This document shows positions 50,964 through 62,787 of a stretch of DNA of 64,000 nucleotides, in pieces (the first letter of the stretch is position 1; every line of letters starts with the position of its first letter). Position numbers and translations under genes: made by a program. Source of the stretch: Armatimonadota bacterium (GTDB taxonomy: Bacteria; Armatimonadota; Fimbriimonadia; Fimbriimonadales; Fimbriimonadaceae). Location: positions 186,001-250,000 of the forward strand of contig JAFDWQ010000009.1 of assembly GCA_018268395.1 (NCBI GenBank), in the 5' to 3' direction. The notes beneath the pieces are model-generated. The model was given only the letters and a program-made list of their open reading frames with translations, did no database searches and had not been told where the DNA came from.

Positions 50964-52133
50964 TCAGAACTTCGCCGCGACCTGGAAATACAGCCACGTC
51001 TGGCGGTCGGCCGAGCCCCCGTTCAGCTTCTTGACGAACGAGCCCGGTTCGAAGAGGCCGATGCCGAGCCCCAGCGAGACCTTGTCCGTCGGGCGGAACG
51101 TCGCTTCCAGGTCGATCTCTGAGCCGACGCGGCGTCCGCTCGATCCGGTCGGATCGACGAAGTCGCCGTTCGCACCTTTGTTCGGCGCGCCACCCGCGCC
51201 GTACCATGCGTCGGACGGGTCACGGAGCGAGAACGTCCGCCAGGACGCGGAGAGGTCGAGCTGTTTCATCGGCTTGTGCACCACGCCGACGGCGAACTCG
51301 TCCATGTTCTTCCACGCCTGCAAGTCCATCGAGCCGTAGAACTTGTGATTGGTGGGATAGAGGTTGTCGAACGTCATGACCGTGTCCGCGTTCGAACCGC
51401 CGCTCGCCGAATCGGCTTCGACATACGCCTTCGTCTTGGGGCCGAACGGCCTCGAAGCCGAAGCGTGCCACGCCCATGCCCGCTGGTCGCGGGACTGCAC
51501 CTTTCCGAACTGCAGGGCCGCCTCTGCCTCAATCGTCCAATCCCCCACCTTCCGGTTGAACTCGTGTGCCAAGGTCGTGATATCGACGCTACGCCCGTTG
51601 ACGCGGTCGTGCTTTTGGACGACCATCGAGCGTCCGTACTTCCATTGGCCGGACAGGCCGAACACCCTGGCGTCCTGCGGCTTGGGCTGGCCGACCCCGA
51701 ATTTGAAGGCGAACGCATCCCAGACCGGCGTCTGAAAGCGGATGCCGTCCATCGAGCGCGGGACGTTGACCCACTCCGCCGTTCCGATCAAGCGTTCGGT
51801 ACCGACCACGATCTTCTGTCGCCCGATCGTCGCCGTGCTCTGGGCGGACTTGAACTGGACATAGGCGAGCGACAGGTCGCCGGCCTCGTCTTCGACGCGC
51901 TTCGTCGGCAGTTCTGACCAAGCATGGGCGTACAAGTACTGAAGCCCGAATTTGAGTCGGTCGCCCTTCTTGCCTTCGATGCCGACCTTGAGTCGTCCGA
52001 GATGGTCGGTCCGGTCATCGGAAACGGCAGAACTGAAGTCCCGCTCCAGACGCCTCTCCAAGCGGTAGCGGAACTCGTACAGGGGCTTGATCTCGATCTT
52101 GTCCTGGTCGACGGGATGGGAGTCGAAAAGCAT
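50964..52133 (-). CDS. Alginate-export-family outer-membrane porin
   Basis: A 389-residue beta-barrel protein of the alginate_exp type: 'YEFRYRLERRLERDF', 'RLKVGIEGKKGDRLKFGLQYLY', 'IGRQKIVVGTERLIG' and a terminal strand ending in Phe ('LYFQVAAKF'), the usual outer-membrane insertion signal. A signal peptide is not seen at the start used here (52133), and another frame overlaps upstream, so the true N-terminus may be lost or frameshifted. Divergent from the nitrate operon across a shared regulatory region with two palindromes, it may admit nitrate or nitrite. Confidence 0.8.
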   Translation of the reverse strand: MLFDSHPVDQDKIEIKPLYEFRYRLERRLERDFSSAVSDDRTDHLGRLKVGIEGKKGDRLKFGLQYLYAHAWSELPTKRVEDEAGDLSLAYVQFKSAQSTATIGRQKIVVGTERLIGTAEWVNVPRSMDGIRFQTPVWDAFAFKFGVGQPKPQDARVFGLSGQWKYGRSMVVQKHDRVNGRSVDITTLAHEFNRKVGDWTIEAEAALQFGKVQSRDQRAWAWHASASRPFGPKTKAYVEADSASGGSNADTVMTFDNLYPTNHKFYGSMDLQAWKNMDEFAVGVVHKPMKQLDLSASWRTFSLRDPSDAWYGAGGAPNKGANGDFVDPTGSSGRRVGSEIDLEATFRPTDKVSLGLGIGLFEPGSFVKKLNGGSADRQTWLYFQVAAKF

Positions 52134-52198: not shown

Positions 52199-52212
52199 AT
52201 GACCACCGTCAT
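52199..52212. promoter_or_regulatory. ATGAC-N4-GTCAT palindrome, porin side
   Basis: Perfect 5+5 inverted repeat with the 4-base spacing of CRP/FNR-type sites. Its centre is 72.5 bp upstream of the porin start at 52133. Confidence 0.65.
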
Positions 52213-52294: not shown

Positions 52295-52308
52295 ATGACG
52301 GACGTCAT
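52295..52308. promoter_or_regulatory. ATGAC-N4-GTCAT palindrome, nitrate operon
   Basis: Perfect repeat, centre 72.5 bp upstream of the catalytic-subunit ATG (52374). A GAGAAT box at 52331-52336 lies 32 bp after the centre, the distance expected for an activator site at -41.5. Confidence 0.7.
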
Positions 52309-52373
52309 GTCGCAGGTCGAATTTGACGCTGAGAATTGCTTTCGGTTGCGGAATTCCGCACAGAGCGAACACG

Positions 52374-54869
52374 ATGGCCACCAGACACGCGGTCCCTGGC
52401 AGACAACCGGCATCGGCGCCGTCGGGCAACGCCCGCGTCGTGCGCACGACGGACAGCCCGAACTGCACGGGTGCTTGCGGTTGGTTGGCGACGGTCGTCG
52501 ACGACGTCATCGTCGACCTGAAGCCTGCCGCCGACTATCCCTGCGAGGCCTACAATCCGCGCGGCTGCCTTCGCGGCATGTCGATGACCCATATGATCTA
52601 CGGCCCGGACCGCGTGAAGAAGCCTCTGATCCGTCAGGGGGCCCGGGGAGAGGGTCGCTGGCGGGAATCGAGCTGGGACGAGGCGCTCGACCATGTCGCC
52701 GGGCACATGAAGCGGATCATCGCCGAGCACGGCGCCGACCACTTGCTGCTCTTCAACCAAGTGGTCGGTACGGGATACCTGCAAAAGGGCGCCCAAGTGC
52801 GGATGGCAGCGACGCTCGGAATGTCGTTCGCCACCGCGTACGACTTCAACGGTGACATCAGCATGGGTTTCACCCACACCGTCGGCATCGACTGCGTCGA
52901 ATGCGAGACGAAGAGCTGGGCCGAAGCCAAATACGCGATCCTCTGGTCGTCCAACGTCTTCCAGACCCGCATCCCCGACGCCAAGTTCCTCACGAAACAC
53001 GCGAAGCAAGAGAACGGTTGCAAGATCGTCTGCATCGACCCGCGGTGTTCCCAAACGGCCAAAGGAGCCGATCTGTGGATCCCCATCCGGCCCGGAACCG
53101 ACGGCGCAATGGCCCTTGCGATGTGCTACACGGTGATCGAAGAATCGCTCGTCGACTGGGAGTTCCTGAAGACGTTCACGGACGTGACGACGTTTGCCCG
53201 GTCAGACAACGGGATGCGGCTGAGGGCCTCGGACGTCGGGTTGGGCTCGGAGGACGAGTTCGTCGTCTGGGACGAAGCGGTCCAGGGTTGGGCCGTGTTG
53301 CCGCCAGACACCCTTCGCCTTCCCGAAGGTCTTAAGCCCGCGTTCCGGGGCGAGAGGACCGTGACGATCGACGGGCAAAGCGTCGTTTGTCGGCCTGTCT
53401 ACCAGATCCTTGAAGACACGATCATGCGGGACGAGTACCGTCCGGAGCAGGTCGCGAACATATGCGACGTACCCGCCGAGACGATCCGCCAGGTGGCCCG
53501 GGAGTACGCGACGACCCGCCCCTCTTCGATCGTGATCGGCATGGGGTTGAACCACCGGCTCCACGGCGATCTCACGATCCGCGCTGTCCTACTTCTGGCT
53601 TCGCTCGTTGGCGCGCACGGCAAGCCTGGCGAGTCTGTCAGCATCTATAGCGGCCAGCACCACTTCCGTCTGGACGTCAGTTCCTGGTGGTTCCCGGAAG
53701 GCGTCCGGCCGAAACCCTGCCCGATGCACTACTTTGTCATGGGCGGGCCGACGGAAACTGTCAACCCAAAGGTGAAATATCCCAAGGACGGGTTCAAGGC
53801 GCTGTTCTGCAGCCATGCGAACCCGCTCGTCACCGAGTTCTCGGACCTCATCAAAGAAGCGATCGACAAGCTCGACCTTTTCTGCGTCTTCGAGTTCTCG
53901 ATGTCGCCGACCGCCGAATATGCCGACGTCGTCTTCCCCTGTCCGACGTTCTGGGAGAAGCAGGAACTCGTGGGGACGAGCTGCCACCCCTATCTGCAGG
54001 TCCAACAGGAGGTCGTGCGGCCGCAGTACGACTCGCGTACCGAGTTCTGGATCGTGAAGGAGCTCGTGCGCCGTGTCGACCCGGACGTTTTCGACAAGTA
54101 TTTCACTGTCACCGAAGACGAAGCGCTTGAGATGCTTTTGGCCAACGGAGGCAGAGAGTGTGCCGGGATCACCCTGGAACGCCTCAGACAAGGGCCTGTG
54201 CGGCTCGACGTCCACGACCCGGAATGCGGCTGCGACGAGCAGTTCCACGACATGAAGCCCTTCCCGCCGCGAGCCTATCCTTTCCCCGAAGGGGCCAATC
54301 GAGAGTTCGTCAAGACCGGGCGAATGGAGTTCTACAAGGAGGAAAAAGTCTTCGGCATGACAGGTGAGCGGATCCCCGTCTATAAGCCGGCCTTTTCCCA
54401 CCTGACAGCCGAAGACCAAGCCATGCCGCTGTGCGTGGTCACGCCCCACAGCAAGTGGCGCGTCCACTCCACGCACAGCAACAACCCGGTGCTGCTCAAC
54501 GTGAACCGGAAGGCCGTCGTCGAGATCAATCCGATCGACGCAGCCGCCCGTGGCATCGGGGACGGCGACACGGTCGAGGTCTTCAACCGCCTCGGCAGCT
54601 TCAAGCTGTGGGCCCTCGTGACGGAAGCGATCAAACCCGGCGTACTTTGCATCGACCACGGGTGGTGGGACAGGTACCTTGCCGAGGGCAAGTACCACAG
54701 TGTCCACACCCACCAAAAGGTCAAACCGACGCACGAGAACTACTTCTTACCCGCGGTCTATGCACCAGGGCAACATTGGAAGGACACCCGTGTCGACGTG
54801 CGCAAGGTCACGGACCCTGGCAGGCGTCACCACGGGCCCCTGAACGGCCGCCGCGGGGAGGTGTCGTAA
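52374..54869 (+). CDS. Molybdopterin oxidoreductase, NarG-like catalytic subunit
   Basis: An 831-residue type II DMSO-reductase-family enzyme. The N-terminal FeS region reads 'NCTGACGWLATVV' (Cys31, Cys35) and 'NPRGCLRG' (Cys65). The segment 'TAYDFNGDISMGF' places Asp161 at the molybdenum ligand of NarG, and 'SNVFQTRIPDAKF' and 'GTDGAMALAM' are also NarG-like. It is much shorter than E. coli NarG (~1250). There is no twin-arginine signal, so it probably works on the cytoplasmic side. Nitrate is the best guess because of two narK genes; related enzymes use chlorate, nitrite or selenate. The ATG at 52374 was chosen over an upstream TTG. It overlaps the next gene (TAATG). Confidence 0.88.
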   Translation: MATRHAVPGRQPASAPSGNARVVRTTDSPNCTGACGWLATVVDDVIVDLKPAADYPCEAYNPRGCLRGMSMTHMIYGPDRVKKPLIRQGARGEGRWRESSWDEALDHVAGHMKRIIAEHGADHLLLFNQVVGTGYLQKGAQVRMAATLGMSFATAYDFNGDISMGFTHTVGIDCVECETKSWAEAKYAILWSSNVFQTRIPDAKFLTKHAKQENGCKIVCIDPRCSQTAKGADLWIPIRPGTDGAMALAMCYTVIEESLVDWEFLKTFTDVTTFARSDNGMRLRASDVGLGSEDEFVVWDEAVQGWAVLPPDTLRLPEGLKPAFRGERTVTIDGQSVVCRPVYQILEDTIMRDEYRPEQVANICDVPAETIRQVAREYATTRPSSIVIGMGLNHRLHGDLTIRAVLLLASLVGAHGKPGESVSIYSGQHHFRLDVSSWWFPEGVRPKPCPMHYFVMGGPTETVNPKVKYPKDGFKALFCSHANPLVTEFSDLIKEAIDKLDLFCVFEFSMSPTAEYADVVFPCPTFWEKQELVGTSCHPYLQVQQEVVRPQYDSRTEFWIVKELVRRVDPDVFDKYFTVTEDEALEMLLANGGRECAGITLERLRQGPVRLDVHDPECGCDEQFHDMKPFPPRAYPFPEGANREFVKTGRMEFYKEEKVFGMTGERIPVYKPAFSHLTAEDQAMPLCVVTPHSKWRVHSTHSNNPVLLNVNRKAVVEINPIDAAARGIGDGDTVEVFNRLGSFKLWALVTEAIKPGVLCIDHGWWDRYLAEGKYHSVHTHQKVKPTHENYFLPAVYAPGQHWKDTRVDVRKVTDPGRRHHGPLNGRRGEVS

Positions 54870-55603
54870 TGGCGCGTTACGCGATGCTGATCGACCTCGC
54901 CCGGTGCATCGGCTGTGACGCTTGCACTATTGCCTGTAAGCAGGAGAACGGCACGCCGCAGGACACGTTTTTCGCCAGGGTGTTGAATGTCGAAACGGGC
55001 ACATATCCAGACGTCAAAAGGCTCTACATCCCCGTCCTTTGTAACCACTGCGAAGACCCGGCCTGCCTCAAAGCCTGCCCGAACAAGGCGATCTTTCGGC
55101 GTCAAGACGGCATCGTGTTGATCGATCAGGACCGTTGCCGAGGTACCGGAGCCTGCGTTTCGGCATGTCCTTATGGCAACGTCATTCTTCACCGCAACGA
55201 CGAGGAGTGGTACCTCAATGAAGACGAACCGTACGAGAGGGACTTCGTCAAACCTCGTCTCAAGGAAGGTACGGCCCGGAAGTGCACGTACTGCGCCCAT
55301 CGGGTCGACGAAGGTCTGAAACCGGCCTGCGTGGTCGCTTGCCCGACCACCGCACGGATCTTCGGCGATCTCGAGGACGCAGAGAGCGACGTTTCGGCCT
55401 ATGTCGAGCAAGAGCGCGGCAAAGGTCGCGACCCGTTCAAGCTCCTGCCCGAGGCCGGTACCGAGCCAGGGGGTATGTACCTCGGCCCGCTGGCCAAACA
55501 GGAAGTCTCGACCCTTGGGGGACGTGCTGAGGCGGAGGTGTTCGAGCCCAACGAAACCGCATCCTATTCGACTTGGAGCCGCCAGGAGGCCTCGCGCCCA
55601 TGA
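54869..55603 (+). CDS. Four-cluster ferredoxin-like electron-transfer subunit
   Basis: A 244-residue NarH/NrfC/DmsB-like protein. Several Cys-rich motifs are visible: 'CIGCDACTIACKQENG', 'CNHCEDPACLKACPNK', 'CRGTGACVSACPYG' and 'CTYCAHRVDEGLKPACVVACP', enough for four [4Fe-4S]-type clusters. It passes electrons between the membrane subunit and the molybdenum subunit. In the second-to-third motif 'CRGTGAC' replaces the usual C-x2-C. No signal peptide. Overlaps the genes on both sides. Confidence 0.92.
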   Translation: MARYAMLIDLARCIGCDACTIACKQENGTPQDTFFARVLNVETGTYPDVKRLYIPVLCNHCEDPACLKACPNKAIFRRQDGIVLIDQDRCRGTGACVSACPYGNVILHRNDEEWYLNEDEPYERDFVKPRLKEGTARKCTYCAHRVDEGLKPACVVACPTTARIFGDLEDAESDVSAYVEQERGKGRDPFKLLPEAGTEPGGMYLGPLAKQEVSTLGGRAEAEVFEPNETASYSTWSRQEASRP

Positions 55604-56736
55604 AACATCTGATTCGAATCGTCGTTGTTGCCGCCTGTCTCTGTGCTTCGGCTTGGGGGCAAAGCGAGATGAAGCAGCCGCTGACCGATGTTTACGGCTC
55701 CTCGTCATGCGTGGGTTGCCACGGCATGACCGCGATGGGCGGACTCGGCCCGCCCCTTGCCCAGACCAAGCTCAAGGAAGTCGAGTTCCTAGCCACGGTG
55801 CGTAAGGGACGTGGCATGATGCCTGGCACGAGTCTCGCCCAAATGGACGACGGCAAGGCCCGGTCGGTCTATCAAGAAGTCCGGACTAGAGCGTGGGACG
55901 AGACCCAGATCCCGATCGCCTTTAAAGTCGGCGCGCTCCTCTCGACCCGGAACGTGGGGCATCTCTTCTTGGCGGCAGGGATCGTGTCCTTGCTTTTGAG
56001 CCTGTGGGTGCTCAGGTACTGGCTGAAGCTCGCCCAATTGAGAGACCTGAAACCGGCCCTGGCCCGCTTGGGTTATGGGCGCGTAACAGCCGTCTTCCTG
56101 CGGTCGCTCGTGGTCGACGGTCTCTTCGTCTCGTCCCTCTGGGCGTCAAGCAAGAAGCGTTGGGCGATGCATGGCCTGATGCTCTATGGGTTCCTCGGGC
56201 TTGGACTGGCGGACATCCTGATGCAGGTGAACGACCCCGCACGGGCCAAGCTTCCCCTCGACCATCCGGTGAAAATTCTGGCGGTCGTATGCGGGGCGGC
56301 GGTGATCACCGGTGTCCTGTACGTTATGGTCCGTTACCGGACGGACAAGTTCATCGACAATGGGGTGACGCTCGGGCGCGATTTCCTGTTCGTAAACCTG
56401 CTGCTGCATTCGGTCTTCAGCGGATTCCTGACGGTCGTCCTCGGCCGGACAGGTGCGTTCACGTGGGTCATGCCCGTGTACATCTACCATCTCCTGACCG
56501 TGCTGACCTTGATCGTCAGCATGCCGTTCACCCGGATGAACCACATCTTCATCGTGCCCGTCATGGCGGGGTTGACCGCCGTCGTCGACGAAGTGGTCAA
56601 AGCCGGGATCGATCTCGGGTTCGTCCGCGAACCCTCGCCAGGTCGGCACCACAAGTCCATCGCGATCGCGAGAAACGTGCTGCAGTCCGTCGAACCGGAG
56701 GCGGCGGAGAAGTTCCGTCTGCGCTACTACCCGTAA
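55600..56736 (+). CDS. Cytochrome c fused to a NarI-like membrane cytochrome b
   Basis: A 378-residue protein. After a signal peptide (MKHLIRIVVVAACLCASAWG) comes a c-type heme site CVGCH (Cys37-His41) with a likely Met ligand in 'GMMPGTS'. It is followed by about five to six transmembrane segments containing histidines suited to b hemes ('RWAMHGLMLYGF', 'LLLHSVFSGF', 'VYIYHLLTVL'). This is a membrane quinol- or cytochrome-linked anchor for the NarGH-like pair, with an extra periplasmic heme. The ATG at 55600 overlaps the previous gene (ATGA) and has AGGAGG upstream. Confidence 0.85.
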   Translation: MKHLIRIVVVAACLCASAWGQSEMKQPLTDVYGSSSCVGCHGMTAMGGLGPPLAQTKLKEVEFLATVRKGRGMMPGTSLAQMDDGKARSVYQEVRTRAWDETQIPIAFKVGALLSTRNVGHLFLAAGIVSLLLSLWVLRYWLKLAQLRDLKPALARLGYGRVTAVFLRSLVVDGLFVSSLWASSKKRWAMHGLMLYGFLGLGLADILMQVNDPARAKLPLDHPVKILAVVCGAAVITGVLYVMVRYRTDKFIDNGVTLGRDFLFVNLLLHSVFSGFLTVVLGRTGAFTWVMPVYIYHLLTVLTLIVSMPFTRMNHIFIVPVMAGLTAVVDEVVKAGIDLGFVREPSPGRHHKSIAIARNVLQSVEPEAAEKFRLRYYP

Positions 56737-56779
56737 GGGCCTGACCCACGACGTCCCAAGACGCCATCGGAAGACACAC

Positions 56780-57301
56780 ATGTGCGAAGGAAACTGCGAA
56801 AACTGTAAGAATCAAAAAGTTGAAACCGATCCGAAACGGAGGTCGTTTCTTTCCTGGTCCGTCGGAGCGATCAACCTCGCCGTACTTGGCGGGATCTTCA
56901 CTCCGGTGATCGGGTTCATCGGATCACCTTTGAGACAGAAGCCGAAGGACGACTGGATCGACGTCATCGGTCAAGACGAAATCCCGGTCGGAGCGACGCG
57001 AGAAGTCCGCTTCAAAGCGAAGGTGGTCGACGGTTACCAGACGGTCACCCGGGAATACGTCGTGTTCCTGAAGCGCTATCCCGAGAAGATCGTCGCCTTC
57101 GATCCGGCATGCACCCACTTGGGATGCCGGATCCTCTACAAAGACGATCAGAAGAAATATCTCTGCCCCTGTCACGGCGGGGTGTTCGATGAAGACGGAA
57201 AGGTCGTCAGCGGTCCGCCGCCGCGGGCGCTGACCGAGCACGCCGTCAGGATCAAAGACGGCCGCGTTTTCGTCGACAGGAGGTTGACCGATGCCACATG
57301 A
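56780..57301 (+). CDS. Rieske iron-sulfur protein of a bc-type complex
   Basis: A 173-residue Rieske protein: [2Fe-2S] ligands in CTHLGC and CPCHGG, one N-terminal membrane segment ('VGAINLAVLGGIFTPVIGFI') and a twin-Arg-like 'KRRSFLSW' before it. It pairs with the cytochrome b encoded next. The first residues 'MCEGNCENC' add a cysteine cluster not usual in Rieske proteins. It overlaps the cytochrome b gene by 11 bp. Confidence 0.92.
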   Translation: MCEGNCENCKNQKVETDPKRRSFLSWSVGAINLAVLGGIFTPVIGFIGSPLRQKPKDDWIDVIGQDEIPVGATREVRFKAKVVDGYQTVTREYVVFLKRYPEKIVAFDPACTHLGCRILYKDDQKKYLCPCHGGVFDEDGKVVSGPPPRALTEHAVRIKDGRVFVDRRLTDAT

Positions 57302-58502
57302 TGTCCTGTCCCCGGAAGAGCCCGTCGTCGGCAAGCACGTCAAGTCCGAGCAAGAACAGCTCGTTGCGGACCGCCCCAGTATCAAGGATTGGACCGACCT
57401 GCGCCTTGGCTGGTGGGGGTTCGTCCGCAAGAACCTGGACGAGCCGATGCCTCCCGGAGTCGGCTGGTGGCAGACCCTCGGCAACCTCCTCATGACGCTG
57501 TTGGCCTTCCAGTTCGTGACGGGGCTGGCTCTGGCCATGTTCTATTCACCCGGTACTGAGAGCGCGTACCTCAGTGTCAAACACATCAACGAAGGACATC
57601 CGGTCGGCCTGTTCGTCCGGGGACTCCATGTCTGGGGCTCGACACTGATCGTATGCGTCACCGTCGCACACGTCTTACGGGTCTTCTTCTGGGGCTCTTA
57701 TAAGAAGCCGAGAGAGTTGACCTGGGTCGTCGGTGTGATGATCTTCAACGTCATCCTCGGCTTTTCCTTCACGGGTTATCTGCTGCCTTGGGACCAGAAG
57801 GCGTTCTGGGCCACGACGGTCGGCACCCGTATCGCAGGAACGTTGCCCGTCGTCGGACAAGGCCTTATGACGCTCATCCGAGGAGGTGAAGAAGTCGGCG
57901 CGCTCACCCTGACTCGGTTCTACGCGATCCACATCATGGTCTTGCCCGCAGCGCTGATGGGCTTCACGGCGCTCCACCTCTATCTTGTCCGGCGGCACCA
58001 CATCGCCGGCCCGGTAGTCCCGCAAAAGGGCGAGCCCGTCAAGTTTTATCCCAACCAACTGTTCAAGGACGCGATCGTCGTCCTGCTCGGAGTCGGGATC
58101 CTGGCCTACATGTCGTTGTCCATGCCGCCTTCGCTCGAGGCGATCGCCGACCCTACCGGTGCCGACTTCGCCCCCCGACCCGAGTGGTACTTCCTTGGCA
58201 TGTACGAGCTCCTGAAAATCATGCCTGCGGGTTGGGAAGTGCTCGCGACGGCGGTGATCCCAGGCTTCGTGACAGTCGGCATGCTCCTCGTCCCTTGGAT
58301 CGACCGGGCCAAATCGCGACACCCGGCCTATAGGCATTGGACTATTGTCGCTGGAACGGCCGTGATCCTGATGATCGGGATCATGACCCTCAAAGGCATC
58401 CTTGAGACACCACCAGAACACAAGGCGGCGCATGCCGCAGAGAAGGTTTCGGTCGGGACGCCCGAGGTCACTCCTGTCCCGCGCCTGGAATCCGGCCGCT
58501 GA
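57291..58502 (+). CDS. Cytochrome b of a bc1/b6f-type complex
   Basis: A 403-residue cytochrome b. It has paired heme histidines in 'VRGLHVWGSTLI', 'VTVAHVLRVFFWGSYK' and 'IHIMVLPAALMGFTALHLYL', and the quinol-site motif PEWYF in 'RPEWYFLGMYELLK'. The N-terminal and C-terminal parts are fused as in bc1, with about eight membrane segments. With the Rieske protein it forms a quinol-oxidising module inside the nitrate operon, as in some archaeal pNar operons. The narK gene begins 11 bp later. Confidence 0.93.
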   Translation: MPHDVLSPEEPVVGKHVKSEQEQLVADRPSIKDWTDLRLGWWGFVRKNLDEPMPPGVGWWQTLGNLLMTLLAFQFVTGLALAMFYSPGTESAYLSVKHINEGHPVGLFVRGLHVWGSTLIVCVTVAHVLRVFFWGSYKKPRELTWVVGVMIFNVILGFSFTGYLLPWDQKAFWATTVGTRIAGTLPVVGQGLMTLIRGGEEVGALTLTRFYAIHIMVLPAALMGFTALHLYLVRRHHIAGPVVPQKGEPVKFYPNQLFKDAIVVLLGVGILAYMSLSMPPSLEAIADPTGADFAPRPEWYFLGMYELLKIMPAGWEVLATAVIPGFVTVGMLLVPWIDRAKSRHPAYRHWTIVAGTAVILMIGIMTLKGILETPPEHKAAHAAEKVSVGTPEVTPVPRLESGR

Positions 58503-58513
58503 GGTCCCGTCCT

Positions 58514-59998
58514 ATGTCAGATCGCTCTGCATCGAACCGTATCCTCTTCATGAACACGCTGGCCTTTACGGTCTGCTTCGCCGTATGGACGCTCTACGGG
58601 GTCTTGATCACGTTCCTTGTCGACAACCAGGTGCTCGTCGCGGACAAGGCGAAGATCGGCTGGCTCATCGGCATCCCTGTCCTGTCGGGCTCCTTGTTGA
58701 GGCTCCCCGTCGGGATGCTGACCGAGCGGTTCGGCGGGAAGCCCGTCACCATCGGGGTCATGCTGTTCTCAGCGGTCTCGGTGTACCTGACAAGCTTTGC
58801 GGAGACCTTCGGCCAGTTCATGCTTGGTGGCTTGGCATTCGGGACGGCGGGCTCGGCGTTCGCGGTCGGCATCGCTTACACGTCGGTCTGGTTCCCGAAG
58901 AAGAGCCAAGGCACGGCGTTGGGCGTGTTCGGGGTCGGCAACGCGGGTTCGGCGTTCACGACGCTGGCCGCCCCGACTCTGCTCGCCACGTTCACGAAAG
59001 GCGGGACCGTCATCGAAGGCTGGCGCGCGTTGCCGCAGGTCTATGGCGCGGCGTTGGTCGTCATGACCCTCGTCTTCGCCATGACGACCCAGAACCGGAC
59101 GGACAAGGACGCCTCGGCGAAGAGCGCCGTGCAGATGCTCGCCCCCTTGCGCGACGTCCGCGTCTGGCGCTTCGGGCTCTATTACTTCCTCGTCTTCGGA
59201 GCCTTCGTCGCGCTCGCGCAGTGGCTCGTCCCGTACTACTTGAACGTCTACGGCGTGTCGCTCGCCGTAGCGGGGGCCATGGCTTCGGCGTTCAGTCTTC
59301 CCAGCGGGGTCGTCCGGGCCCTCGGAGGCTGGGCGTCCGACCGGTTCGGTGCCCGGGCGACGATGTACTGGGTGCTCGGCAGTTGCGCGGTGTTGTTCGC
59401 CCTCCTCGTCGCTCCGCGCATGGAGATATTGTCGCCGGGCGAAGGCGTGATGGCGGACAGTCCGGGCGAGGTCGTCGCGGTCTCCCCGACGGAGGTCCAA
59501 GTCCGCGCCAAAGACGGTCCGGTCAAGACGTACAAGTTGAAGCAGGCCCCGACGGCGCAAGTCCGGGAGGGCGAACTCATCTTCCCGACGTTCGAGTCGT
59601 GGCAAGCTCCGGCCGTCACGGTCGGCCAAACGGTGAAGAAGAAGGAGCTCGTCGCCAAGGGGACGACGCACGTGTTCTTCCAAGCCAACATGTGGGTGTT
59701 CACGGTGATCGTCTTCCTTGCCGGCATCATGATGGGCGTGGGAAAGGCAGCGGTCTACAAGCACATCCCGGAGTACTTCCCCCACGACGTCGGCGTCGTC
59801 GGCGGGCTGGTCGGCGTGATCGGTGGCCTCGGGGGGTTCTTCTGCCCGATCCTCTTCGGGGCGGTCTTGAACGCGACAGGCCTTTGGTCGACGTGCTGGC
59901 TGTTCCTGGGCGCCTTGGCCGTCGTGTGCCTCGTCTGGATGCATCTCGTCATCCTCAAGATGGCCGCCCATCAGAAGATCGAGCACGCACAGGACTAG
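58514..59998 (+). CDS. narK: NarK-type nitrate/nitrite transporter with loop domain
   Basis: A 494-residue major-facilitator protein of the nitrate/nitrite porter family: 'LRLPVGMLTERFGGKPV', 'FVVGNAGSAFT'-like 'GVFGVGNAGSAFTTLAAP' and 'VGKAAVYKHIPEYFP' are the family's signature stretches. Unlike ordinary members it has a soluble insert at about residues 303-390, between membrane segments, with 'SPGEVVAVSPTEVQVRAKDG' and 'VTVGQTVKKKELVAKG', which looks like a lipoyl/barrel-sandwich fold. It is the last gene of the nitrate operon. Confidence 0.9.
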   Translation: MSDRSASNRILFMNTLAFTVCFAVWTLYGVLITFLVDNQVLVADKAKIGWLIGIPVLSGSLLRLPVGMLTERFGGKPVTIGVMLFSAVSVYLTSFAETFGQFMLGGLAFGTAGSAFAVGIAYTSVWFPKKSQGTALGVFGVGNAGSAFTTLAAPTLLATFTKGGTVIEGWRALPQVYGAALVVMTLVFAMTTQNRTDKDASAKSAVQMLAPLRDVRVWRFGLYYFLVFGAFVALAQWLVPYYLNVYGVSLAVAGAMASAFSLPSGVVRALGGWASDRFGARATMYWVLGSCAVLFALLVAPRMEILSPGEGVMADSPGEVVAVSPTEVQVRAKDGPVKTYKLKQAPTAQVREGELIFPTFESWQAPAVTVGQTVKKKELVAKGTTHVFFQANMWVFTVIVFLAGIMMGVGKAAVYKHIPEYFPHDVGVVGGLVGVIGGLGGFFCPILFGAVLNATGLWSTCWLFLGALAVVCLVWMHLVILKMAAHQKIEHAQD

Positions 59999-61387: not shown

Positions 61388-62725
61388 TCAACAGGGCTTT
61401 TCGGCGCCTTTCCGGACGTAGAACCACCAATTGAGGGCGACGCAAAGGGCATAGAACGCCGCCGCCACGAAGAAGAAGACGGTCGGCTTACCCGTCGCGG
61501 CGATGACAGCCCCGAACGAGAGGCTGAAAAGGAACGGGCCGTAGGCAGCGACGGCCGAAGTCCACCCGATCACACCGCCGGCCTGGCGGGGCGGGAAGAT
61601 CATCGGCATCTGCTTGAACGTGGACGCGTTGCCGATCCCGCTGAAGAGGAAGAGGCCGAGCATAAAGCCAAGGAAGCCGCCCCACTGTTGGAGGCCCGTG
61701 GGGGCGGTGTACGCCGTGACGCCCAAAGCGCAGACGACCAACCCGACGCCGCTCACCATGGTCACGCGGCCGCCGCCCAGCTTGTCACTGACGGGTCCGA
61801 AGAGGACTCGGACGGCCGCGCCGATCAGCGGGCCGAGGAACGCATAGGCCAGGGGGTCCGGCCCGCCGGGGAACTGACCGTACGTCTCCTTGATGAGGAG
61901 CGGAAAGGCGGCCGAGTATCCGCTGAAGGAGCCGAAAGTCATGACATAGAGCAGCGTCATGAGCCAGGTGTGCTTTTCGCGGAAGATGTCGAGCTGTTGC
62001 CGGAAATCGGCCTTAACGGGCACGCTTTTCAGCCCGGCCCACGCCAGGGCCGCAGCTACGATCACGAAGGGGAGCCAGACCAACGCGGCGTTCTGGAGGT
62101 AGACCGGATGCGACGTCTTGTCTTTCTCCACGAACGTCTGCCCCGTCCCGATCCAAGCCATCCCGATCACGGCAGGAATGAGGAACTGCGCTACGCTCAC
62201 GCCGAAGTTGCCGACGCCGGCCTGGATGCCCAGGGCCGTCCCCTGTTTCGTCTTCGGGAAGAACAGCGACGTGCTCGGCATGAACGAGCTGAAGTTGCCC
62301 CCTCCGAGTCCGGCTAAAAAGGCGAGGACGAGAAAGGTCGTATACGACGTCTGAGGGTTCTGGACTGCGGCCGTCCAGCCCAGGCACGGCACGACGAGGA
62401 GCACGGTCGAGAGGGCCACGGTCTTGCGTGTCCCGAACAACGGGATGAGGAAGGTATGGACGATCCGGAGCGTCCCAGCGGCCAGGCCCGGCATTGCGGT
62501 CAGCCAGAACAGTTGCTGCTTGTCGAACTTGAACCCGACGCCACTCAGTTTGACGACGATGGCGCTCACCATGAACCAGGTGCTGAACGACAGGAACAAG
62601 GCGAACGTCGTGAGCCAGAGCGTGCGCCACGCCAGGCGCTTCCCTTCGCCGCCCCATGCTTGGACGTCTTCTGGGTTCCAAGTCGCGGGCAATGGATCTT
62701 GATGGGCCGAGGTGGTCAAGGACAA
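61388..62725 (-). CDS. narK: NarK-type nitrate/nitrite transporter
   Basis: A 445-residue twelve-segment major-facilitator protein. The nitrate-porter signatures are 'AGLGGGNFSSFMPSTSLFFP' and 'SGIGNASTFKQMPMIFP', both typical of NarK/NrtP proteins. It starts at a TTG (62725) backed by AGGAG 7 bases before. It lies downstream of the nitrate-reductase gene on the same strand, but an ATGAC-N4-GTCAT box in the gap suggests its own regulated promoter. It differs from the other narK by lacking the soluble insert. Confidence 0.92.
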   Translation of the reverse strand: MSLTTSAHQDPLPATWNPEDVQAWGGEGKRLAWRTLWLTTFALFLSFSTWFMVSAIVVKLSGVGFKFDKQQLFWLTAMPGLAAGTLRIVHTFLIPLFGTRKTVALSTVLLVVPCLGWTAAVQNPQTSYTTFLVLAFLAGLGGGNFSSFMPSTSLFFPKTKQGTALGIQAGVGNFGVSVAQFLIPAVIGMAWIGTGQTFVEKDKTSHPVYLQNAALVWLPFVIVAAALAWAGLKSVPVKADFRQQLDIFREKHTWLMTLLYVMTFGSFSGYSAAFPLLIKETYGQFPGGPDPLAYAFLGPLIGAAVRVLFGPVSDKLGGGRVTMVSGVGLVVCALGVTAYTAPTGLQQWGGFLGFMLGLFLFSGIGNASTFKQMPMIFPPRQAGGVIGWTSAVAAYGPFLFSLSFGAVIAATGKPTVFFFVAAAFYALCVALNWWFYVRKGAEKPC

Positions 62726-62773: not shown

Positions 62774-62787
62774 ATGACGCCCGTCAT
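62774..62787. promoter_or_regulatory. ATGAC-N4-GTCAT palindrome before narK
   Basis: Third perfect copy of the palindrome, centre 55.5 bp before the narK start. A weak AATGAT box follows about 31 bp downstream on the minus strand. Confidence 0.6.

Follow-up and report, generated by a model that had tools for sequence, protein, structure and literature searches.

A proposed cytoplasm-facing nitrate reductase with its own cytochrome bc-type module in a conserved operon of Armatimonadota

The DNA examined here, a 64-kb stretch of an Armatimonadota genome (hereafter the window; G000:C9:186001-250000; genome of 3.72 Mb, 99.8% complete), carries a six-gene operon that resembles several described respiratory systems in part. 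We use FNar as a working name for its catalytic subunit, A, and the close homologues of A. We lean, with modest confidence, towards reading the operon as a respiratory nitrate reductase complex with a cytoplasm-facing active site, to which a cytochrome bc-type module encoded in the same operon would supply electrons. In this it recalls NarGHI of Escherichia coli, with which it shares a probable inward-facing site, a subunit with a molybdenum-bis(molybdopterin guanine dinucleotide) cofactor (Mo-bisMGD), a four-cluster Fe-S subunit with a predicted [3Fe-4S] cluster, a NarI-like cytochrome, and a neighboring NarK gene. However, A is shorter than NarG (831 versus ~1250 amino acids), lies outside the NarG clade, and has Asp in place of His at its FS0 cluster; the Fe-S subunit is short and ArrB/PsrB-like; the membrane subunit carries a cytochrome c domain and is short of one heme ligand; and the operon has no NarJ but includes its own Rieske and cytochrome b genes.

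Other systems match different parts. Haloarchaeal pNar loci (L052, L054) likewise group genes for a type II molybdenum enzyme, an Fe-S subunit, a Rieske protein, and cytochrome b, but they contain TorD and no cytochrome c-NarI fusion, and a clade of FNar with pNarG is rejected (approximately unbiased [AU] test, p 3e-5). The pNar enzyme is exported (PMC7754194). For Streptomyces coelicolor Nar1, an inward-facing enzyme associated with the bcc-aa3 supercomplex, it has been argued that feeding by the bc complex would raise the proton yield from 2 to 4 (PMC7931247). That system pairs a canonical NarGHI and its NarJ with an oxidase supercomplex (PMC7931247), whereas the bc genes of the FNar system lie within the operon itself and its membrane subunit includes the cytochrome c as a fused domain. 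The chlorate reductase ClrA (L049) and perchlorate reductase PcrA (5e7o) are most similar to A in sequence, and a relationship with ClrA is not rejected; the L049 locus differs in having a TorD chaperone, a separate cytochrome c gene, and no Rieske/cytochrome b genes. Chlorate and perchlorate reductases are periplasmic. Nitrobacter-type nitrite oxidoreductase (NXR) and the Thermus NarC-GHJIK system place a cytochrome c beside a Nar-type enzyme and NarK, but with a NarG/NxrA of canonical size, a NarJ, an unfused cytochrome c, and no Rieske/cytochrome b genes in the operon. The parts of the FNar operon are known; to our knowledge, their fixed combination, the cytochrome c-NarI and B-C fusions, the FS0 Asp, and the chaperone-free state are undescribed in the literature searched.

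Layout and conservation of the operon

Six open reading frames (ORFs), all on the + strand, occupy positions 52374-59998 and are joined by overlaps or short gaps:

52374..54869, + strand: A, catalytic Mo-bisMGD subunit, 831 amino acids (alternative TTG start at 52323)
54869..55603, + strand: B, four-cluster ferredoxin subunit (GTG start at 54860 possible)
55600..56736, + strand: C, anchor helix, mono-heme cytochrome c, and NarI/EtfD-like domain of five transmembrane (TM) helices (TTG start at 55573 possible)
56780..57301, + strand: D, Rieske [2Fe-2S] protein with one anchor helix (by Pfam)
57291..58502, + strand: E, cytochrome b of b6/petD type, 403 amino acids, overlapping D (by Pfam)
58514..59998, + strand: F, NarK-type major facilitator superfamily transporter (by NarK family profile)

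The start of C overlaps the end of B through an ATGA. Domain calls from Pfam and NCBIfam match the outline of all six genes given by an earlier first-pass annotation, which was made from the sequence of the window; they include Molybdopterin, Molydop_binding, and Molybdop_Fe4S4 for A and the N and C domains of cytochrome b for E. Scans for sigma-70 promoters and terminators gave no signal above chance.

We compared 23 loci, mostly from metagenome assemblies, of which 22 are complete. The order A-B-C-D-E is the same in all 22 complete loci, which belong to Armatimonadota and include other families of the phylum. Such constancy goes far beyond chance, and it supports the inclusion of the Rieske/cytochrome b module in the same unit, as proposed in the first-pass annotation; the overlaps and short gaps between the six genes that the annotation described are confirmed as well. 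The position of narK is variable: it is in line with the operon at some loci and divergent or a few kilobases away at others. NarK-like or nasC genes nevertheless occur within the fetched flanks of 17 of the 23 loci.

In 10 of the 23 loci B and C form a single ORF, and in L082 the C-terminal part of A is joined with B and C in one ORF. Fused and unfused loci are intermixed across families (L059 is fused, for example, and L060 of the same family is not). These B-C and A-B-C fusions indicate that the three proteins act together. In the fused forms, the first helix of C would be an uncleaved anchor, which places A and B inside and the cytochrome c domain outside. Separately, the C proteins of L056, L057, and L061 are fused or enlarged forms with a second cytochrome c motif or domain.

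In the named close relatives, which are metagenome assemblies of Armatimonadetes/Fimbriimonadaceae, the catalytic subunit is 73-87% identical. Of 291 genomes of the phylum, 40 match subunit A at E<=1e-60; in three of the 40, the match is a weaker one (37-39%) to another type II enzyme. A search of genome contigs beyond the phylum relatives returned seven loci, all of them Armatimonadota, using peptide patterns that find only close kin there. A plasmid search gave a best match of 33.6% for A and no match for C. The hosts are uncultured soil and wastewater bacteria; within the reach of these close-kin searches, the operon has been met in Armatimonadota.

The catalytic subunit and its chaperones

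The best family for A is the type II dimethyl sulfoxide reductase subfamily TIGR03479, at 466 bits against a cut-off of 985 bits; the score against narG (TIGR01580) is 239.5 bits, far below the cut-off of 1084 bits. Its best match among plasmids is the chlorate reductase L049 (33.6% over 95%), and its best PDB match is the perchlorate reductase PcrA 5e7o. In phylogenies A falls in the type II clade with NarG, NxrA, ClrA, PcrA, and pNar against a DmsA/PsrA outgroup (support 99/98). FNar forms a 100/100 clade inside type II and outside NarG, pNarG, PcrA, and the NxrA-like sequences in two trees, which contain long branches, include PcrA and EbdA as HMMER-aligned stretches, and omit SerA and DdhA. 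Groupings of FNar with NarG (AU p 0.0007), with pNarG, and with PcrA (p 3e-5 for each of the latter) were rejected. Grouping with the NxrA-like sequences gave p 0.04, and no firm grouping resulted; grouping with ClrA L049 was not rejected (p 0.25). By these comparisons, A is a separate deep branch of the type II dimethyl sulfoxide reductases and not a NarG.

Two sequence features further characterize this branch. The FS0 motif of A reads D27-x3-C31-x3-C35-x29-C65, and Asp27 replaces the FS0 His in all 23 sequences that cover the region; NarG, PcrA, and pNarG have His at this place, and L049 has Asn. The pattern His-x3-Cys-x3-Cys-xn-Cys seems to be conserved in all type II enzymes (PMC8301774), so the Asp of FNar is a departure from the type. 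Asp157, which aligns with the YD motif of NarG and PcrA and is invariant, is a candidate Mo ligand. A has no membrane segment in a hydropathy scan and no twin-arginine (Tat) signal in its sequence.

No NarJ/TorD protein (PF02613) was found in the genome, although control genomes were positive, and FdhD was likewise not found there. PF02613 occurs in 6 of 61 relatives, each time beside a gene for an NxrA- or NarG-like protein of ~1160-1370 amino acids. A canonical NarG or NarJ was rejected as an explanation. The operon works without a NarJ/TorD-family chaperone, or with one of another kind. Five relatives in Fimbriimonadales (L093-L097, in G020, G029, G044, G037, and G042) encode long NxrA-like enzymes with TorD chaperones, and L095 scores 1648 bits against the Kuenenia nitrite oxidoreductase; three of these genomes (G020, G029, and G044) carry both the long enzyme and an FNar operon. 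A canonical NarG with adjoining NarH-, NarJ-, and NarI-like genes was found at L098, in a genome (G045) without the FNar operon.

These results bear on several claims of the first-pass annotation. It had described A as short, without a twin-arginine signal, and without a NarJ/TorD-type chaperone gene in the cluster; all of this holds, and the absence of PF02613 extends to the whole genome. The inward-facing site that it suggested is supported by the lack of a Tat signal and by the fusions, which locate A and B at the cytoplasmic face of C. The contrast that it drew with the outward-facing pNar enzymes is real as well, since FNar A lacks Tat and TM signals and the pNar clusters contain TorD. 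Its "NarGH-like" pair stands as a molybdenum enzyme with an Fe-S protein, but not as a relative of NarG and NarH in particular, given the narG score of A and the closest families of B (ArrB/PsrB/TtrB). Similarly, of its bc-linked respiratory complex with an inward active site, the inward site and the shared unit with the bc module are retained, while A as a NarG is not. The phylogeny that it named as a check places A outside the nitrate clade, but also in no characterized non-nitrate clade.

The same data make it very hard to regard the operon as an ordinary NarGHI variant with the bc genes as accidental neighbors. Although haloarchaeal nar genes also adjoin Rieske/cytochrome b genes, the FNar gene order is kept in 22/22 loci across families, A is excluded from NarG by the AU test, and the genome contains no canonical NarI (PF02665) or NarJ; synteny and tree thus both contradict this explanation.

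A shared upstream box and the probable substrate

We found a palindromic box of the CRP/FNR type in front of the operon and of a second NarK gene (narK2; 61388-62725, - strand):

52199..52212, + strand: box 1, TATGACCACCGTCATA, 162 bp upstream of the A ATG
52295..52308, + strand: box 2, ATGACGGACGTCAT, 66 bp upstream of the A ATG
62774..62787, + strand: the same box, 49 bp upstream of narK2

The consensus is TATGAY-N4-RTCATA; it shares the core TGA-N6-TCA with CRP/FNR sites, and most copies lie 35-120 bp ahead of A. Of the 23 loci, 17 have the pattern ATGAYN4RTCAT in this upstream region, compared with a mean of 0.008 in shuffles, a count that is descriptive because the pattern was derived from those loci; other genes of the genome provide an independent test. 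The window contains four matches where 0.05 would be expected, and the genome contains 22 sites against none in a reversed control. Among the 22 are sites that precede the operon (two sites), narK2, nasC, Fe-S/Rieske genes beside nasC, nrfA, a multiheme cytochrome gene, and a membrane protein gene directly followed by a gene for a CRP-family regulator (C3:25656-26366); two more lie around a second Rieske/cytochrome b cluster. Positions elsewhere in the genome are C5:286579, C9:251061, C9:253650, C3:22756, C3:24170, C1:470932, and C1:471373. About nine of the 22 sites fall inside coding sequence, including one at 58371 in the cytochrome b gene, and are probably due to chance. The box appears to mark a nitrate/N-oxide regulon. 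FNR is expected to carry an N-terminal set of cysteines, which the CRP-family regulator does not have; it may sense a signal other than that of FNR. Another 14-bp palindrome, at 52347 (TGCGGAATTCCGCA), is not kept in relatives and was dropped.

Nitrate is our best call for the substrate. Independently of the phylogeny, it is favored by the linkage to NarK, NasC, and NrfA: the operon has its box in common with narK2, nasC, and nrfA, and 17 of the 23 loci have NarK-like or nasC genes nearby. The best PDB match of F is NarK 4u4w (E 3e-13), and its Arg63 and Arg268 are invariant; we take these to be the equivalents of the substrate-binding Arg89 and Arg305 of NarK. F also contains an inserted beta-rich domain of ~85 amino acids (residues about 304-388) between two TM helices, which is found in all relatives of at least 62% identity and is missing from more distant NarK-like neighbors.

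We considered whether the operon instead reduces another oxyanion or other substrate, such as chlorate or selenate, with nitrate transport a mere neighbor. A lies outside the nitrate clades, its grouping with the chlorate reductase L049 is not rejected, and its closest solved structure is a perchlorate reductase. Known chlorate and selenate reductases are exported, however, and A is not; this, together with the NarK/NasC neighborhood and the box shared with narK2, nasC, and nrfA, makes a different substrate improbable. Still less probable is operation in reverse as a nitrite oxidoreductase, with electrons passing from cytoplasmic nitrite through cytochrome c to an oxidase as in Nitrobacter-type NXR. 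The cytoplasmic orientation, the cytochrome c, and NarK do recall Nitrobacter-type nxr operons, and a COX1 oxidase is encoded, but a search of the genome found no RuBisCO, which speaks against a nitrite-oxidizing autotroph. Moreover, the box is common to nrfA and nasC, A is not firmly grouped with the NxrA-like sequences (AU p 0.04), and a Rieske/cytochrome b pair with a PEWY quinol site, being a quinol oxidase, would be superfluous for nitrite oxidation.

If nitrate is the substrate, the end product here is likely to be ammonium. NrfA is encoded in the genome (500 bits), a search for NirK gave no match above the cut-off, and a search for NorB returned a single COX1-family gene, a strong oxidase match. 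NrfA is weakly enriched among genomes with the operon (8 of 20, versus 6 of 41 without; Fisher p 0.049). An abundant Armatimonadetes heterotroph, known from a metagenome-assembled genome, expressed NarGH (the label used in that paper) and Nrf genes in an anammox reactor (PMC6714388).

Proposed electron transfer through the membrane subunits

B has Pfam 4Fe-4S domains, no TM helix, and no export signal. Fifteen of its Cys are invariant, and Thr or Ala occupies the 16th place, in the CRGxxxC motif (the third cluster motif), at a position where NarH has Trp. B is thus predicted to hold three [4Fe-4S] clusters and one [3Fe-4S] cluster, as type II beta subunits do.

C (residues numbered from TTG 55573) combines a cytochrome c domain (PF13442) with a weak NarI-type domain; 17 of the 22 homologues match PF02665, at best with 3e-6, and QmoC is matched at 1.6e-13. 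The heme c motifs are CVGCH (CxGCH in homologues) and GMMP. His200, His306, His324, and Lys234 are invariant. His306 and His324 align with NarI His187 and His205, and Lys234 probably matches NarI Lys86; His200 is set at NarI His56 by motif reading, whereas hhalign shifts that part by five residues. On the same motif reading, the position of NarI His66 is an invariant Leu (Leu210), so that C has three invariant His at the four positions that ligate the two hemes b of NarI. One bis-His heme b on the inner side, held by His200 and His324, is likely; the outer heme b is uncertain. In an AlphaFold model of a fused B-C protein, the B part had a predicted local distance difference test score (pLDDT) mostly <50; we used the C part only and drew no B-C interface from it. 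Its best matches are EtfD (Z 11.7) and NarI (Z 10-10.8). C therefore resembles EtfD and NarI by fold and QmoC by sequence, and we know of no EtfD, QmoC, or NarI with an N-terminal cytochrome c domain.

The N-terminus of D, KRRSFLSW, is twin-arginine-like and, with the anchor, should place its cluster outside. The cytochrome c domain and the Rieske protein would then lie on matching sides, given this signal and the lack of TM helices and export signals in A and B. The Rieske motif and, in cytochrome b, the two His pairs and the PEWY quinol-site motif are kept in all loci, with Pfam matches.

Joining the D/E/cytochrome c module in series with the C-B-A reductase is the simplest reading of these features. 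Menaquinol would be oxidized at the outer quinol site of E; one electron would pass by way of D to the external cytochrome c domain of C, and the other would be recycled through the b hemes of E in a Q cycle. From the cytochrome c, electrons would return inward, first through the heme b part of C and then along the Fe-S clusters of B and A, to reduce nitrate at the Mo of A in the cytoplasm. F would import nitrate and export nitrite, which NrfA, encoded elsewhere in the genome, would convert to ammonium. Because electrons would go outward to cytochrome c and then back to a proton-consuming site, about 4 charges would be separated per 2 electrons, compared with 2 for NarGHI. Nitrate as the substrate, the single physical complex, the direction, the electron route, and the stoichiometry are inferred; what we observe is the gene content and its constant order, the fusions, the cofactor motifs, the missing chaperone, and the box that the operon has in common with other nitrate/nitrite genes.

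Several points weigh against this proposal. The equivalent of NarI His66 is lost family-wide (Leu210), leaving the predicted heme path across the membrane incomplete, and the hop from cytochrome c to the inner heme would need a second, unusually ligated heme (perhaps at His306) or another route. The best fold match of the modeled C, EtfD, is a one-heme protein that reduces quinone directly (PMC13083937). The position of A outside the NarG clade (AU p 0.0007) means that the substrate is not readable from phylogeny, only 8 of 20 operon-bearing genomes encode NrfA, the nitrate activity is a prediction, and most sequences of the relatives come from metagenome assemblies.

The first of these points raise an alternative in which C, like NarI, would itself oxidize menaquinol at a site next to heme b and pass the electrons straight to B and A, the Rieske protein, cytochrome b, and cytochrome c forming a separate branch to other acceptors such as NrfA or an oxidase. 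In addition to the apparently incomplete heme wire, C keeps His200, His324, and Lys234, the counterparts of NarI His56, His205, and probably Lys86, and EtfD holds a single heme b beside menaquinone (PMC13083937). Yet all 22 complete loci retain the cytochrome c domain, the Rieske gene, and the cytochrome b gene within the operon, 10 loci encode the cytochrome c domain and the Fe-S subunit as a single polypeptide, and the genome holds a second Rieske/cytochrome b cluster that could serve other acceptors. We consider the direct route unlikely on balance, but a serious rival while a second heme in C is uncertain.

For the series arrangement, we tentatively entertain a fuller form, held a little less firmly than the nitrate reductase reading itself: a complete Rieske/cytochrome b proton pump would be joined with a cytochrome c and a molybdenum-containing nitrate reductase of inward orientation in one genetically fixed machine, with an Asp-ligated FS0 and no dedicated chaperone. 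As one such machine, it would respire nitrate much as a bc1-cytochrome oxidase chain respires oxygen. If so, host cells could gain about twice the usual energy from nitrate respiration, and the operon would bear on the question posed by Streptomyces Nar1, whether a bc complex can feed an inward Nar and double its proton yield, through a link that would here be fixed in the genes. A adds a deep branch of type II molybdoenzymes with apparently altered FS0 ligation and without NarJ/TorD. The operon could also serve as a marker of nitrate respiration in Armatimonadota, which are common in anammox reactors and soils, and which narG/narJ surveys would miss or misname.

Some neighboring and related genes complete the picture. 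A divergent Alginate_exp-type porin gene lies at 50964-52133 (- strand), and one is also near the operon in L055 and L063. The second Rieske/cytochrome b cluster, at C1:470200-475200 (L128), is accompanied by a cytochrome bd subunit I-like gene, a PAS-LuxR regulator gene, and the two boxes. Just to the right of the window, C9:251141-253630 (L075 5141-7630) encodes a Rieske protein, a four-cluster Fe-S protein, and a 351-amino-acid membrane protein with NarI-like His motifs beside nasC, a set that could possibly provide a quinol-linked electron supply for the assimilatory enzyme.

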